DNA from: Pseudonocardia hydrocarbonoxydans
Lineage (GTDB): Bacteria; Actinomycetota; Actinomycetes; Mycobacteriales; Pseudonocardiaceae
Assembly: GCF_006539565.1 (NCBI RefSeq)
Contig: NZ_BJNG01000001.1
Location: 62,001-126,000, forward strand
DNA: 64,000 nucleotides
Direction of reading: 5' to 3'
The notes beneath the pieces were generated by a model. The model did not search any database. It saw nothing but the letters and a program-made list of their open reading frames with translations, and was not told where the DNA came from. The translations under genes were made by a program, and so were the position numbers. Positions 21,595 to 44,209 of this stretch are shown here, in pieces. The stretch's first letter is position 1; each line of letters begins with the position of its first letter.

Positions 21595-22779
21595 ATGACC
21601 GGCAGCGTGTTCTCCCGGCTCTACACCGGCACCGGCGCGTTCGACGTCGTCGGCCGCCGGAGGACGTGGTACGTCGCGTTCGGCGTGCTGATGCTGGTGT
21701 GCGTGCTCTCGATCGTGCTGCGCGGCTTCAACCTGGGCATCGACTTCACCGGCGGCACCCAGATCCAGTTCCCGACGGCGGCCACCAGCACACCCGTCGA
21801 GGTGGAGGCCGTCCGCGCCGTGTACGAGCAGGCCATCGGCGAGGAGCCGGCAACCGTGCAGGTCGCCGGGACCGGCGCCGCCCAGTCGGTGCAGATCCGG
21901 TCCGAGACGCTCGACCCGGCCCAGCTGGTGACGCTCAAGCAGGCCCTGTTCGACACGTTCGGCCCCGCCGGGCCGGACGGCGTGCCGAGCCCGGCCGCGA
22001 TCAGCGACAGCGCCGTCAGCGGCAGCTGGGGCGACCAGATCACCCGCCAGGCGCTCATCGCGCTCGTGGTGTTCCTGGTGCTGGTCACGCTGTTCCTGGC
22101 GTTCTACTTCGAGCGGTCCATGGCGATCGCCGCGCTCGTCGCGCTGGTGCACGACGTCGTCGTCACCGCGGGCATCTACTCGATCGTCGGTTTCGAGGTC
22201 ACCCCGTCCACGGTGATCGGCCTGCTGACGATCCTGGGCTTCTCGCTCTACGACACCGTCGTGGTGTTCGACAAGGTCAAGGAGAACACCCGCGGCCTGC
22301 TCGCCCTCTCGCGGCGCACCTACGCCGAGGCGGCCAACCTCGCGCTCAACCAGACGCTGATGCGGTCGATCAACACCTCGCTGATCGCGGTGCTGCCGGT
22401 GATCGGGCTGCTGGTGATCGGCGTCGGCCTGCTGGGTGTCGGCACCCTCGCCGACCTGGCGCTGGTGCAGATGGTCGGCATCCTCGCCGGCGCGGTGTCG
22501 TCGCTGCTGCTGGCCACGCCGCTGCTCGTCGACCTCAAGCTGCGCGACCCGAAGGTGCGGGACCAGGCGGAGCGGGTGCGGAAGCGGCGCCTGCACGCCG
22601 CCGCGCCCGCGGGCGGCGACCCGGACGCCGACCCCGACCTCACCGACGACGCGACGCTGGCCACCGAGCTGCGCCGGGAGAAGGCCCTCACCGCGGCGTC
22701 CGGGGTGCCCGCGCGCGCCCGCCCGGCCGGCACCGCCCGGCCGCAGGCCAACCGGCCCACCGGTCGGCGGCGGAAGTGA
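21595..22779 (+). CDS. secF: Protein translocase subunit SecF
   Basis: 394 aa. Partner of SecD. The first helix is near residues 22-42, then LGIDFTGGTQIQF of the periplasmic P4 domain, then five helices with the conserved SIVGFEVTPSTVIGLLTILGFSLYDTVVVFDKVKEN block. The last 70 residues are a charged, proline-rich cytoplasmic tail. It starts one base after the secD stop, and its own stop overlaps the apt start as GTGA. Confidence 0.97.
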   Translation: MTGSVFSRLYTGTGAFDVVGRRRTWYVAFGVLMLVCVLSIVLRGFNLGIDFTGGTQIQFPTAATSTPVEVEAVRAVYEQAIGEEPATVQVAGTGAAQSVQIRSETLDPAQLVTLKQALFDTFGPAGPDGVPSPAAISDSAVSGSWGDQITRQALIALVVFLVLVTLFLAFYFERSMAIAALVALVHDVVVTAGIYSIVGFEVTPSTVIGLLTILGFSLYDTVVVFDKVKENTRGLLALSRRTYAEAANLALNQTLMRSINTSLIAVLPVIGLLVIGVGLLGVGTLADLALVQMVGILAGAVSSLLLATPLLVDLKLRDPKVRDQAERVRKRRLHAAAPAGGDPDADPDLTDDATLATELRREKALTAASGVPARARPAGTARPQANRPTGRRRK

Positions 22780-23324
22780 CCGTCGCCGATCCCGAGCTCG
22801 ACGAGGACGGCTCGCTGACCCACGTCGTCGGGTTGGTCCGGGACGTGCCCGACTTCCCCGGCCCGGGGATCCTGTTCAAGGACCTCACCCCGGTGTTCGC
22901 CGACGCGCGCGCGTTCACCACGGTCGCCACCGAGCTGGCGGCCTGCGTGGGCGACGCCGACGTCGTGGCCGGGATCGAGGCGCGCGGTTTCCTGCTCGGG
23001 GCCGCGGTGGCGCTGGTCGCGGGGTTGGGGGTGGTCCCGGTGCGCAAGGCGGGCAAGCTGCCGCGCGTGGCCGGGTCGCGCACCTACGACCTGGAGTACG
23101 GCACGGCCACCCTGGAGCTGCCCGCGGAGACCGTGTCGCCCGGGGCGCGCGTCTTCGTCGTCGACGACGTGCTGGCCACCGGCGGCACCGCGGCCGCGAC
23201 CGCGGCGCTGCTGGCCGACGCGGGCGCCGAGGTGGTCGGGTTCGGGGCGTTGCTGGAGCTCACCGCGCTGTCCGGGCGCCAGGCGCTGGCCCCGCTGCCG
23301 GTGCACGCGTTGCTGCACGCCTGA
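22776..23324 (+). CDS. apt: Adenine phosphoribosyltransferase
   Basis: 182 aa, GTG start overlapping the secF stop. Converts adenine and PRPP to AMP (purine salvage). The N-terminal hood VRDVPDFPGPGILFKDLTPVF, the pyrophosphate loop GIEARGFLLGAAVA, RKAGKLPR, and the PRPP loop VFVVDDVLATGGTAAA (about residue 130) are all present. In actinobacteria apt commonly lies between secF and rel, linking purine salvage with (p)ppGpp synthesis. The rel leader begins 19 nt after its stop. Confidence 0.96.
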   Translation: MTVADPELDEDGSLTHVVGLVRDVPDFPGPGILFKDLTPVFADARAFTTVATELAACVGDADVVAGIEARGFLLGAAVALVAGLGVVPVRKAGKLPRVAGSRTYDLEYGTATLELPAETVSPGARVFVVDDVLATGGTAAATAALLADAGAEVVGFGALLELTALSGRQALAPLPVHALLHA

Positions 23325-23343: not shown

Positions 23344-23394
23344 GTGACCGAGCCCGCGAGGGCACCGCGCACTGTTTGCGAGGAGTGGGTGTGA
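23344..23394 (+). CDS. Leader mini-ORF A before rel (16 codons)
   Basis: GTG start, peptide [16 protein letters not shown]. It begins 7 nt after TATCCT and so could be the 5' end of a leaderless mRNA. Its TGA overlaps the GTG of mini-ORF B (GTGA, 23391-23394). It has the same first eight codons and the same EEWV end as mini-ORF B but lacks ten codons in the middle, and it carries one Cys. Too short for normal gene finding. A protein product is unproven; coupling to the next ORF is the more likely role. Confidence 0.55.
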
Positions 23395-23471
23395 CCGAGC
23401 CTGCGAGGGCACGGTCGGGCACAGCACCGGCGGGCACGCCGGCGACGAGCGTCAGCGAGGAGTGGGTGTGA
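23391..23471 (+). CDS. Leader mini-ORF B before rel (26 codons)
   Basis: GTG start overlapping the stop of mini-ORF A, and TGA stop overlapping the rel GTG (GTGA at 23468-23471). The peptide starts [10 protein letters not shown] and ends SVSEEWV, with a GAGGAG ribosome-binding site for rel inside its last codons. It has the same length as, and aligns without gaps to, the mini-ORF before sugA (15 of 26 residues identical). Rel synthesis would thus depend on two upstream terminating ribosomes. Confidence 0.6.
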
Positions 23472-25780
23472 CCGAAGTCCAGCCGGCGGCACCCCCGGTC
23501 CCCAGCCCGGACGGACCCGCCAAGCCCTCGGCCACGCGCCGTGTCCGGGCGCGGATCGCGCGCCGGATGACACCCCAGCGCGTGGCGGTGGTGGCGCCGG
23601 TGCTGGAGCCGCTGGCCAGCGTGCACCGCGCCGTGCACCCCAAGGCCGACCTCGCGCTGCTGCAGCGCGCCTTCGACGTCGCCGAGGCCAAGCACGAGGG
23701 CCAGAAGCGCAAGTCGGGCGACCCCTACATCACCCACCCGCTCGCCGTCTCCACGATCCTGGCCGAGCTGGGCATGGACACCACCACGCTGGTCGCGGCG
23801 CTGCTGCACGACACCGTGGAGGACACCGACTACTCGCTGGAACGGCTGCGGGCCGACTTCGGCGACGAGGTCACCCAGCTCGTCGACGGCGTCACCAAGC
23901 TCGACAAGGTCGAGTACGGCAACGCGGCCGAGGCCGAGACGATCCGCAAGATGATCGTCGCGATGGCCCGCGACCCCCGCGTGCTGGTGATCAAGCTGTC
24001 GGACCGGCTGCACAACATGCGCACGATGCGGTTCCTGCCGCCGGAGAAGCAGGCGAAGAAGGCGCGGGAGACCCTGGAGGTCTTCGCCCCGCTGGCGCAC
24101 CGGCTCGGGATGGCCACGGTCAAGTGGGAGCTGGAGGACCTGTCCTTCGCGATCCTGCACCCGAAGAAGTACTCGGAGATCGTGCGGCTGGTCGCCACCC
24201 GCGCGCCCTCGCGCGACACCTACCTCAAGCAGGTCATCGACGAGATCACCGCGCAGCTCGACTCCGCGCGCATCGCGGCCACCGTGGAGGGCCGGCCGAA
24301 GCACTACTGGTCGATCTACCGCAAGATGATCGTCAAGGGTCGCGACTTCGACGACATCCACGACCTCGTCGGCGTGCGCGTGATGGTCGACGACGTGCGC
24401 GACTGCTACGCCGCGATGGGCATGGTGCACGCGCTGTGGCAGCCGATGCCGGGCCGGTTCAAGGACTACATCGCCCAGCCGCGCTTCGGGGTGTACCAGT
24501 CGCTGCACACCACCGTCATCGGGCCGGACGGCAAGCCGCTGGAGTGCCAGATCCGCACCGCGGAGATGCACCGCACCGCCGAGTACGGCATCGCGGCGCA
24601 CTGGCGGTACAAGGAGTCCAAGGGCGCCGTCGGGTCTACGGTCGAGGTCGACGACATGTCCTGGATGCGCCAGCTGCTGGACTGGCAGCGGGAGGCGGCC
24701 GACCCCGGTGACTTCCTGGAGTCGCTGCGCTTCGACCTGGGCACCAAGGAGATCTTCGTCTTCACGCCCAAGGGCGACGTGCTGACGCTCCCGCTCGGCT
24801 CCACCCCCGTCGACCTCGCCTACGCCGTGCACACCGAGGTGGGCAACCGCTGCATCGGCTCGCGCGTCAACGGCCGGCTGGTGGCGCTGGAGCGCAAGCT
24901 CGAGTCCGGCGACGTCGTGGAGATCTTCACCTCCAAGGCCGAGGGGGCGGGCCCCTCGCGCGACTGGCTGGCCTTCGCCGCATCCCCGCGGGCCCGCACG
25001 AAGATCAAGCAGTGGTTCGCCAAGGAGCGCCGCGAGGAGGCGATCGAGGGCGGCAAGGAGGCCATCACCCGCGAGGCCCGCCGCACCGGGGTGCCGCTGC
25101 AGCGGCTGGTCTCCGCCGACGCGATGGCCGCCCTGTCGCGCGAGCTGCACTTCCCGGACCTCTCCGGGCTCTACGCCGCGGTCGGGGAGGGCCACGCCAG
25201 CGCCCGGCACGTCGTGCAGCGGCTCGTCGCGTTGCTGGGCGGGATGGAGGACGCCGAGGAGGAGCTGGCCGAGCGCGCCACCCCGTCGACGATCCGGACG
25301 CGCCGTGCCACCGGTGACGCCGGGGTGGTCGTGCGCGGCGACTCCGCCGACCTGGCCGACCTCTACACCAAGCTCGCCCGCTGCTGCACACCCGTGCCCG
25401 GCGACGAGATCCTCGGGTTCGTCACCCGCGGCGGGGGCATCTCGGTGCACCGCACCGACTGCACCAACGCCACCGAGCTGCAGAGCCGCTCGGAGCGGAT
25501 CGTCGACGTCGCGTGGTCGGTCTCGGCGGGCTCGGTGTTCCTCGTCGCGATCCAGGCCGAGGCGCTCGACCGCCACCGGCTGCTCTCCGACATCACCAAG
25601 GTGCTGGCCGACGAGAAGGTCAACATCCTCTCGGCGTCGGTGACGACCTCGCGCGACCGCGTCGCGGTGTCGCGGTTCAGCTTCGAGATGGCCGACCCCA
25701 AGCACCTCGGGCACGTGCTGAAGGTGGTGCGCAACGTCGAGGGGGTCTACGACGTGTACCGGGTGACGTCGGCGGGCTGA
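23468..25780 (+). CDS. relA: Bifunctional (p)ppGpp synthetase/hydrolase Rel
   Basis: 770 aa from the GTG at 23468 ([10 protein letters not shown]); GAGGAG is 5-6 nt upstream. The hydrolase HD domain is intact ([30 protein letters not shown] about residue 110), as is the synthetase ([18 protein letters not shown] about 275, [15 protein letters not shown] about 340). C-terminal TGS ([32 protein letters not shown]), zinc-finger-like [10 protein letters not shown] and ACT domains follow. This is the single long Rel of actinobacteria, the stringent-response controller. Two coupled leader ORFs precede it. Confidence 0.97.
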
Positions 25781-41874: not shown

Positions 41875-42837
41875 CTACTTCTCCCCCCTGGCCTGCGACA
41901 GGTCCACCTTGAACCCCTTGATGAACCCGAACGCGATGAGCACGACCGACAGGAACAGCAGCACCGACACCGCGGAACCCAGGCCGATCTCGAGTCGGGC
42001 GATGGTCTGGCGGTAGGCCAGGAACGACACCGTCTCGGTGCCGTTGGCCCCCGCCGTCATGACGAAGACGCTGTCGAACACGCGGAACGCGTCGAGCGTG
42101 CGGAACAGCAGGGCCACCATGATCGCGGCCTTCATGTTCGGGATGGTCACCTTGCGCATCCGCTGCCACCAGGTCGCCCCGTCGACCTGGGCGGCCTCCT
42201 GCAGGACGTCGGGGACCTGCGCGAGGCCCGCGAGCAGCAGCAGCGAGATGAACGGGGTGGTCTTCCAGATCTCGGCCAGGCAGATCACCAGCAGCGAGGT
42301 GCCGGTGCCGCCGAACCAGTCGGTGTCGGCCGAGACCCCCGGCAGCCACGCGAACCAGGTGTTCACGAAGCCCGAGGTGAGGTCGAAGGCGAACTGCCAG
42401 GCGAACGCCGAGACGACGGTGATGATCGCGTAGGGCAGCAGGATCGCCGCGCGCAGGATCGGCCGCAGCCCCTTGAGGGCCTTGAGCATCACCAGTGCGA
42501 GGGCGAAGCCGAGCACCAGCTCCACGGCCACGGTGACGACGGTGATCAGGACCGTGACGCCGAAGGACTGCCACCACAGCGTGTCGGTGAGCACGACCCA
42601 GTAGTTGCCCAGGCCCACGAAGGACCGGTTGCCGGGGTCGGTGAGCCGGTAGGAGAACAGCGAGTCGTAGACGGCCTGGACGATCGGGTACGCGGTGACC
42701 AGCAGCATCACCGCGAACGCCGGGCCGGCCAGGATCCAGCCCAGGCGCCGCTCCGCGCGGACGCGGTCGCTGGCCCCACCGGTCGGCGCCGGACGGCCGG
42801 TGGCGACGTCGGTGGGCGGGGGTGCGGTGGTGGTCAC
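41875..42837 (-). CDS. sugA: ABC sugar importer permease (SugA)
   Basis: 320 aa from a GTG at 42837 (VTTTAPPPTDVA). The GTG overlaps the stop of a 26-codon mini-ORF as GTGA. Six or so membrane helices (WILAGPAFAVMLLVTAYPIVQ first) and an EAA loop VLQEAAQVDGATWWQRMRKVTIPNMKAAIM (about residues 210-238) identify a CUT1 MalF-like permease. It forms the membrane channel with SugB. A GAGGAG ribosome-binding site lies within the mini-ORF's last codons. Confidence 0.94.
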   Translation of the reverse strand: MTTTAPPPTDVATGRPAPTGGASDRVRAERRLGWILAGPAFAVMLLVTAYPIVQAVYDSLFSYRLTDPGNRSFVGLGNYWVVLTDTLWWQSFGVTVLITVVTVAVELVLGFALALVMLKALKGLRPILRAAILLPYAIITVVSAFAWQFAFDLTSGFVNTWFAWLPGVSADTDWFGGTGTSLLVICLAEIWKTTPFISLLLLAGLAQVPDVLQEAAQVDGATWWQRMRKVTIPNMKAAIMVALLFRTLDAFRVFDSVFVMTAGANGTETVSFLAYRQTIARLEIGLGSAVSVLLFLSVVLIAFGFIKGFKVDLSQARGEK

Positions 42838-42914
42838 GACTCCTCCTCGCTGGCGCTCGTCGGAGCCGTTCCGTGGGTCGCTGTGTCGAATGGTGCCCTC
42901 GCAAGCTCGGTCAC
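42834..42914 (-). CDS. Coupling mini-ORF between lpqY and sugA (26 codons)
   Basis: GTG start at 42914 overlaps the lpqY stop (GTGA), and its TGA overlaps the sugA start (GTGA). The peptide begins VTELARAPFD and ends SASEEES. It has the same length as the mini-ORF directly before rel, and 15 of 26 residues are identical without gaps. It occupies the whole intergenic space between two genes that would otherwise be 73 nt apart. Whether the peptide itself matters is unknown. Confidence 0.6.
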   Translation of the reverse strand: MTELARAPFDTATHGTAPTSASEEES

Positions 42915-44209
42915 AGCAGCTCCTCCCCGGACAGGACGGCACGGATCAGCTCGGCCGCGGCCGGGCCGGTGACGTCGGGTGTGACGGCGGTCGGCGGGTG
43001 GTAGATGCGCTGCAGGCTGCCGGAGACCTCGCTGTAGTACGCCGTCTGCGGCCGGGGGGCCGCCTGCTGCAGGGACTGCGCGATCACCGGGGCCATCGGG
43101 AACTCCGCGACGACCTCCGGGTCCTCGAACACCGCGAGGCTGGCCGCCGGGTTGCCGTTGGACACGAAGTAGTAGGCCTGGTTCTCGTCGGAGGTGATGC
43201 ACTGCGTGGCCTGGTAGGCCAGGTCGGGGTGGCGACTCGACGCGCCGACCCCCAGGTTGATGCCGCCGTAGGGCGGCGCGCTCGGCGTGCCCGCCTCGAC
43301 CTGCGGGTACACCGCCCAGCCGTAGTCGTCGACGACGGACTGGTCCAGGGTGCCGCCCTCGACGCCGCTGCCCGCCCGGCCCCACACGAACGGCCAGTTG
43401 ACCATGAAGGAGGCGTCGCCGTTCTCGAACGACGCGACGCTCTCGTCCTCGCCCGCGGTGGTGAACGCCGGGCCGACCGCCCCGCTGTCGGCCACCGCGC
43501 GCATGACCTCCGCCGCGCGTGCGGCCTGCGGGGTGTCGAGCCCCAGCTGGATGTCGGCGGGGTCGTCGGCGGTCTGCGCGATCACCGCGCCGCCCGCGGA
43601 GGCGATCAGCGCGTTGAACCACACGACCAGCGACTCGGCACGCCGGCCCTGGGCCGCGATCTGGGTGTCCTGCTCCTGCGCCGCGGTGACCAGCTGGTCC
43701 CAGGTGACGGGCTGGGTCATGTCCAGCCCGGCCGCCTCGGCGACGGACTTCTTGTACCAGAGCAGCTGGGTGTTGGCCCAGAACGGCACCGTCACCAGCT
43801 GCCCGTCCCAGGTGGCACCGTCGATCGCGCTCTGCACCACGCCGTCGGAGACGTCGCTCGCGACCTCGGGCGGCATCGGGGCGAGGAACCCGGCCTGGGC
43901 GAACTCCGGGATGTAGGGCGGGTCCAGGCTCATGATGTCGATCGAGGAGTCACCGGCCGCGAGGCGCCGCACGAGCTGCTGGCGCTGCTCGGAGGACTCG
44001 CGCGGCAGCACCGAGACGTCGATGTCGTAGGCGCCGCCCGCCGCGGCGGAGCAGCGGGCGGCGATCTCCTCCTGGCCGCCCGAGTCGGGGTTGATGTACC
44101 AGGTCAGAGTGGGCGGCCCAGGGTCGGAGACCCCGCATCCGGCCAGGCCGCACAGGGCCAGCGCGGCCACAGCCGCGGTGCCCAGGCGACGCCGTCGTCG
44201 TTGACGCAT
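42911..44209 (-). CDS. lpqY: Trehalose/sugar-binding lipoprotein LpqY
   Basis: 432 aa, with ATG behind GGAGGAG. A lipoprotein signal ends LALCGLAGCG (Cys 25). The extracellular solute-binding fold closely follows mycobacterial LpqY: LPRESSEQRQQLVRRLAAGD, IDIMSLDPPYIPEFAQAGF, FWANTQLLWYKKSVAE, GRRAESLVVWFNALIASAGGAVI, FMVNWPFVW and APPYGGINLGVG. It should capture trehalose or a related disaccharide and deliver it to SugABC. First gene of the operon; palindromic half-sites lie upstream. Confidence 0.93.
   Translation of the reverse strand: MRQRRRRRLGTAAVAALALCGLAGCGVSDPGPPTLTWYINPDSGGQEEIAARCSAAAGGAYDIDVSVLPRESSEQRQQLVRRLAAGDSSIDIMSLDPPYIPEFAQAGFLAPMPPEVASDVSDGVVQSAIDGATWDGQLVTVPFWANTQLLWYKKSVAEAAGLDMTQPVTWDQLVTAAQEQDTQIAAQGRRAESLVVWFNALIASAGGAVIAQTADDPADIQLGLDTPQAARAAEVMRAVADSGAVGPAFTTAGEDESVASFENGDASFMVNWPFVWGRAGSGVEGGTLDQSVVDDYGWAVYPQVEAGTPSAPPYGGINLGVGASSRHPDLAYQATQCITSDENQAYYFVSNGNPAASLAVFEDPEVVAEFPMAPVIAQSLQQAAPRPQTAYYSEVSGSLQRIYHPPTAVTPDVTGPAAAELIRAVLSGEELL

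Follow-up and report, generated by a model that had tools for sequence, protein, structure and literature searches.

What occupies the junction between lpqY and sugA in Pseudonocardia hydrocarbonoxydans, and by what rule might it have arrived there? In the stretch of DNA analysed here (64,000 nt, hereafter the window), a previous reading made from the sequence alone had described a 26-codon ORF joined to both genes by GTGA overlaps, and the coordinates confirm this (Table 1). The stop codon of lpqY is the TGA within the first GTGA, so that the GTG of the mini-ORF overlaps it, and the stop of the mini-ORF overlaps the GTG of the second GTGA, at which sugA begins. No curated NCBIfam model scored above its cut-off for either flanking protein; the names lpqY and sugA therefore rest on the sequence-only reading and on resemblance.

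Table 1. Features of the lpqY-sugA junction and of the related copies near rel, in window coordinates.
Feature	Position	Strand	Basis or remark
77-nt inserted unit (GTGACC ... GAGGAGGAGTC)	42838..42914	minus	no insert at the 26 further lpqY-sugA junctions of the genus that were examined
26-codon ORF (VTELARAPFDTATHGTAPTSASEEES, then stop), GTG start at 42914, stop ending 42834, GTGA overlaps at both ends	42834..42914	minus	sequence
lpqY, ABC sugar-binding protein, upstream gene	42911..44209	minus	Pfam SBP_bac_1
sugA, ABC permease, downstream gene	41875..42837	minus	Pfam BPD_transp_1
GAGGAG, ribosome-binding-site-like, 5 nt before sugA GTG	42843..42848	minus	sequence
Left hairpin region, element positions 0-6 with 17-23, tandem G.A at 7-8/15-16	42892..42915	minus	covariation, 114 copies
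Right hairpin region, element positions 41-53 with 72-84	42831..42874	minus	covariation, 114 copies
rel mini-ORF B, second full copy in window	23391..23471	plus	before RelA/SpoT gene
RelA_SpoT domain	23468-25777		Pfam, downstream of rel mini-ORF B
Shortened 16-codon copy, tandem, just before rel mini-ORF B	23344..23394	plus	

The insert is absent from all 26 other lpqY-sugA junctions that were examined across the genus, of which 25 read GTGA and one TGATG. For this comparison 30 sugA loci were fetched for 62 genomes and 27 were used, the window's own included; three at 54-55% identity were left out, and one that was used (L104) is 67% identical in SugA. Because these 26 junctions lack the insert, the 77-nt unit is an insertion. 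In close relatives the junction is CTGCT-GTGACC-ACC; its counterpart in the window is CTGCT-[GTGACC ... GAGGAGGAGTC]-GTGACC-ACC.

The khpA junction, which was matched in 60 of the 62 genomes, provides a second series of occupied and empty sites. Among 30 loci fetched there, three are occupied by family copies, 25 have RTGA starts without a copy, and two carry other short extra sequence. In none of the three copies are the left and right GTGASC identical. Since it is the right-hand version that most empty sites agree with, it is taken to be the target's own, and the left-hand one to have been brought by the element. Empty sites read GTGAC in the four non-occupied loci nearest to the window's protein and GTGAG in most others, L239 excepted. 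At least two of the three khpA insertions look independent. The occupied loci (L229, L234 and L246) have GC just before GTGA, versus TC in most empty sites. Empty sites at the two junctions thus show insertion, and with it the spread between genes that had been proposed from the sequence.

The similarity between the window ORF and rel mini-ORF B, reported earlier as 15 of 26 residues without gaps, was reproduced by count and exceeds chance. When the junction was compared by blastn with the entire genome (89 contigs, 5.29 Mb), it matched itself and three more places, with E-values of 7e-17, 9e-12 and 3e-8, and the window contains two occurrences of the 19-nt 3' motif where 0.13 would be expected. 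A 17-mer scan allowing two mismatches gave 20 sites in the genome versus 2 in the control; all 20 were inspected and seven were kept as copies on that basis. Three of the seven are shortened or degraded, and the degraded copy on contig 9 yet keeps 26 codons and both GTGA. Other copies lie before khpA (KH_KhpA-B) and between dhaK and dhaL (Dak1; TIGR02365). The copy before a ParA-like gene (L024:1449-1517, contig 53, minus strand) has lost its in-frame stop, and forms an N-terminal extension of the ParA-like reading frame. Neither the window stretch 22700-23323 nor the 100 residues before khpA matched a Pfam family; rpsP, before khpA, and the gene before rel carry provisional names given by reading only.

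These copies bear directly on how the unit is coupled to its neighbors. In a set of 32 copies not selected for the 3' junction, RTGA follows GAGGAG at exactly 5 nt in every case, against a background of 0.0047 per position, which upholds the ribosome-site-like motif at the element end; the 5' GTGA was built into the search patterns and so gives no independent count for that junction. The unit supplies a GTGASC of its own on the 5' side and a GAGGAG on the 3' side, and for this reason both junctions remain GTGA. A ribosome ending lpqY could then restart on the mini-ORF and afterwards on sugA, and this may be why the insertion is tolerated. A stop/start overlap need not exist beforehand, because the first rel copy occupies a start codon where the upstream gene, as read, ends earlier. 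Thus the picture of a dispersed coupling cassette stands insofar as the unit spreads between genes, sits on stop/start junctions and ends in GAGGAG; the notion of a peptide as its unit does not, and the claim that such a cassette is undescribed fails.

A strict pattern for the family matched 59 of 397 sampled genomes of the order, with no match for a reversed-pattern control; by our own count 5 of these belong to the window's family, 54 to Geodermatophilaceae, and none to the sampled Mycobacteriaceae. One Geodermatophilaceae genome (G299) has 25 strict matches, and 32 of 62 Pseudonocardia genomes match (control 0). Named records carrying the family are from Kutzneria, Solihabitans, Sciscionella, Pseudonocardia, Modestobacter and Blastococcus. 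A class-wide spread was rejected, the strict pattern having matched 2 of 394 genomes across the class, both inside the order. The 3' motif by itself was found in Mycobacteriaceae at 12 places in 11 of 151 genomes, versus 14 control matches (own count). At the stated limits, the window unit had no match among phages, and neither it nor one Mycobacterium unit had a match among plasmids; no Rfam family was found in the window.

Mycobacterial interspersed repetitive units (MIRUs) underlie standard tuberculosis typing, yet to our knowledge neither their movement nor their choice of sites has an established explanation. According to a 2025 review (PMC12548453), they appear mobile, insert at start codons and couple by a -4 nt overlap. 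In another report, a 77-nt class I MIRU is the 5' UTR of M. bovis parA (PMC4128351), and according to a third, M. tuberculosis H37Rv carries units of 40-100 bp at 41 locations (PMC2734929). This kind of element was therefore already described, contrary to the sequence-only reading. Set against those descriptions, the family here is likewise a short interspersed repeat with tandem copies, an ORF coupled by -4 nt overlap, and insertion at start codons. The 77-nt unit falls within the 40-100 nt range and recurs in many copies; its same-direction ORF overlaps RTGA at both flanks; tandem copies appear as a 77-nt spacing in relatives and as the tandem rel copies in the window; and start-codon insertions are matched by empty sites in relatives. 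Unlike MIRUs, the family here occurs in other genera and families, and its 3' loop is GACGAGCGYCAGCGAGGAG, versus CCGAGCNNGCGAGG in the Mycobacterium units found here. Membership in the MIRU type rests on these Mycobacterium relatives together with the literature, the M. tuberculosis units being known here by description, not sequence. We conclude that the window ORF very probably belongs to a MIRU-type family of interspersed repeats, of which this Pseudonocardia carries a 77-nt unit exactly at the lpqY/sugA overlap. A MIRU-type family thereby extends beyond Mycobacterium.

The Mycobacterium relative is a 65-nt unit of the same design, with RTGA at both ends, and its homology was established by weak model matches and then by a pattern. 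Under strict filters and with few candidates scored per genome, a structure model (R2) gave one match in 248 Mycobacterium genomes, which was taken as chance, being without RTGA ends. At E up to 1, the model gave 39 weak matches in 20 chosen Mycobacterium genomes. Among 30 of these loci read, L307, L308 and L316 were kept by eye as units; with E of 0.07-0.21, these three proved to be 65-nt units with RTGA ends. The remaining loci look like chance, apart from L296, where a related GAGCTCGCGAGC unit is repeated in tandem, again in Mycobacterium. A pattern built from the three units matched 33 of 396 genomes (control 0). Of 37 such units read, 36 are 69 nt with the overlap included, in frame and free of internal stops, the pattern itself having demanded the final TGA. 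We infer, in part from an MMPL-family gene that lay below its cut-off in a truncated ORF, that the unit-bearing genomes belong to the genus Mycobacterium.

To examine the two ends of the element, we used 114 copies of 81 nt with non-redundant downstream flanks, drawn from 176 elements (156 once inner tandem copies were removed). The left pair 5-18 is Watson-Crick in 112 of 114 copies (56 expected) and the right pair 43-82 in 107 of 114 (53 expected), where base 82 falls in codon 2 of the downstream gene. RNAalifold drew 17 pairs, all within the two helices of Table 1, of which the right one extends 3 bases beyond GTGA into sugA in the window. The helices also contain weak pairs: 44-81 is unpaired in 82 of 114 copies and 45-80 in 43 of 114. 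The window copy is itself imperfect, with 4-19 and 0-23 unpaired on the left and positions 41, 42, 44 and 45 unpaired on the right. In the loops, tandem G.A mismatches lie at 7-8 with 15-16, 54-55 with 70-71, and 57-58 with 67-68. Because the search patterns demanded GTGA[CG]CGAGC..GCGAG (1-10, 13-17) and AGCGAGGAG (64-72), conservation of the left G.A mismatches, like that of the right-hand 3' sides, follows from the search itself; the unfixed 5' sides at 54, 55, 57 and 58 are G, A, G and A in 109-111 of 114 pairs. The sequences indicate that each end of the element is able to fold into a hairpin that contains tandem G.A mismatches.

The pattern placed no constraint on the covarying columns 18, 41-52, 73-77 and 82-84, and it limited column 5 to C or G. 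Paired cells amounted to 84.3%, versus 74.8% after shuffling and at most 41.9% in slid versions, and cells with double changes numbered 280 versus 113. Paired cells, double-change cells, further pair types and the covariation score were each higher than in any of the 500 shuffles or of the slid versions. For pairs with double changes the count of 11 did not exceed the shuffles, since 142 of 500 reached it, and one slid version equalled it. Relatedness of the copies inflates the double-change and covariation counts; better evidence for the hairpins comes from the slid controls and from the second genus. In that genus, Mycobacterium, the first base of the left start pairs with position 23, and that of the downstream start pairs with position 37, each in 29 of 29 non-redundant units; the four paired columns there were free of the pattern, while the G.A loops were mostly fixed by it. 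Thus the hairpin arms covary with the downstream gene, either at its start codon or at codon 2 (107/114; Mycobacterium 29/29). Within a single genome the arms vary strongly from copy to copy, which would not be expected of a young element whose sequence is fixed. A.C cells fell to 36 versus 76 shuffled and G.T cells to 71 versus 88; because A.C cells drop far more, the sense strand is probably the pairing one. G.A mismatches are, as far as is known, stable only on the sense strand.

These properties resemble a known design. IS200/IS605-type and REP/RAYT elements have hairpin ends and internal guides complementary to the target or cleavage site, and act in a strand-specific manner. The family here likewise has hairpin ends and strand specificity, and guide bases complementary to the target at 43-82, 42-83 and 41-84, with a putative role in cleavage; the likeness in the guide is one of complementarity alone. 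Unlike in those elements, the guide pairing here extends the hairpin itself, and the element has its target on its 3' side, read along the sense strand. New here are the G.A-mismatch hairpins at both ends, with arms matched to the downstream start codon or codon 2. Among the literature matches listed, none described such a family outside mycobacteria or such hairpins; Supply 1997, the key MIRU paper, lies outside that coverage.

Does the guide belong to the element or to its target? In 24 of 144 copies (81 nt, related copies included) the left end differs from the target, and in those 24 the guide base is complementary to the target 18 times, to the left end 4 times and to neither of them twice. 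The guide thus goes with the target junction. In tandem arrays, which are mostly near-identical duplications, the guide of the inner copy suits the left end of the copy that follows in 17 of 18 cases. As the most likely target step we propose, tentatively, that the sense strand folds into two hairpins and that guide 41-47 must pair with target RTGASCN, in which case the element would land on matching start codons. A still more tentative generalization would treat MIRU-type repeats, over the range from Mycobacterium to Geodermatophilaceae, as mobile DNA with hairpin ends that homes to start codons by pairing an internal guide with RTGASCN, the guide being matched anew at every target. Counting against our best explanation as a whole, a MIRU-type insertion with a guided target step, are the T to G change two bases upstream of GTGA in the three occupied khpA loci, the imperfect hairpins of the window copy and the variability of the arms among copies of one genome. 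Paired ends matched to the target start codon and codon 2 offer a testable rule for insertion and coupling, and folded ends that match the start codon they occupy hint at how such repeats choose landing sites.

The same pairing could have another reason, one compatible with guided insertion and somewhat less probable than it: the hairpins may act in the mRNA, where the start codons of the mini-ORF and of the downstream gene would be held until the upstream ribosome opens them, as a coupling device under selection. The drop in A.C relative to G.T cells, which places the pairing on the sense strand, the location of the start codon and GAGGAG inside the right hairpin, and the identical RTGA spacing in the 32 copies all fit such a device. 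However, single copies are not clearly better folded than shuffles (z -1.95 to +1.46, five copies), and a conserved fold from single copies was rejected; out-of-frame copies persist; and pairing ends sharply after 41-84, with 40-85 at chance across the 114 copies. We take guided insertion as most likely, the mRNA coupling hairpin next, and templated mutation third.

This third explanation, an improbable one, holds that the arms became complementary through mutation alone, by template switching in an imperfect palindrome and without function. It would account for a match that declines outward (107, 95 and 72 of 114 at 82, 83 and 84), for a second stretch (37-39) that copies target bases, and for arms that vary around constant loops. 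It sits poorly with the consistency of the match before many different genes, at 43-82 here and at 37-66 in all 29 Mycobacterium units, and with the pattern-free 5' G.A sides, which stay G or A although correction should erase mismatches.

There remains the peptide, which the sequence-only reading had regarded as an in-frame, equal-length unit. Of the 176 elements 155 are in frame, one of those with an internal stop, and 21 are out of frame; the 155 are in frame mainly because 144 share the length of 81. Among length variants, 11 of 32 are in frame (11 of 31 unique), the one-third that chance predicts, and entropy is about equal across codon positions (0.684, 0.689 and 0.653). No coding constraint is seen on the peptide, and what is conserved is the DNA. 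The family is real, as proposed, but the moving unit is 77 nt of DNA and not the peptide. That the mini-ORF is a real small-protein family travelling as a coding cassette is, despite the many in-frame copies with a single internal stop, very improbable given the length variants, the even entropy and the one copy that continues in frame into the ParA-like gene. The unit would move as DNA, with a peptide that itself probably has no function.

In the 81-nt copies, element positions 36-39, adjoining the guide, are identical to target bases ASCN, with 37 equal to 82 in 101 of 114. One Mycobacterium unit (L332:1500-1568) lies between an LpqY-like gene (31% identical) and a SugA-like gene (50% identical); because the unit there is of the other type, it is taken as an independent hit on the lpqY-sugA junction.
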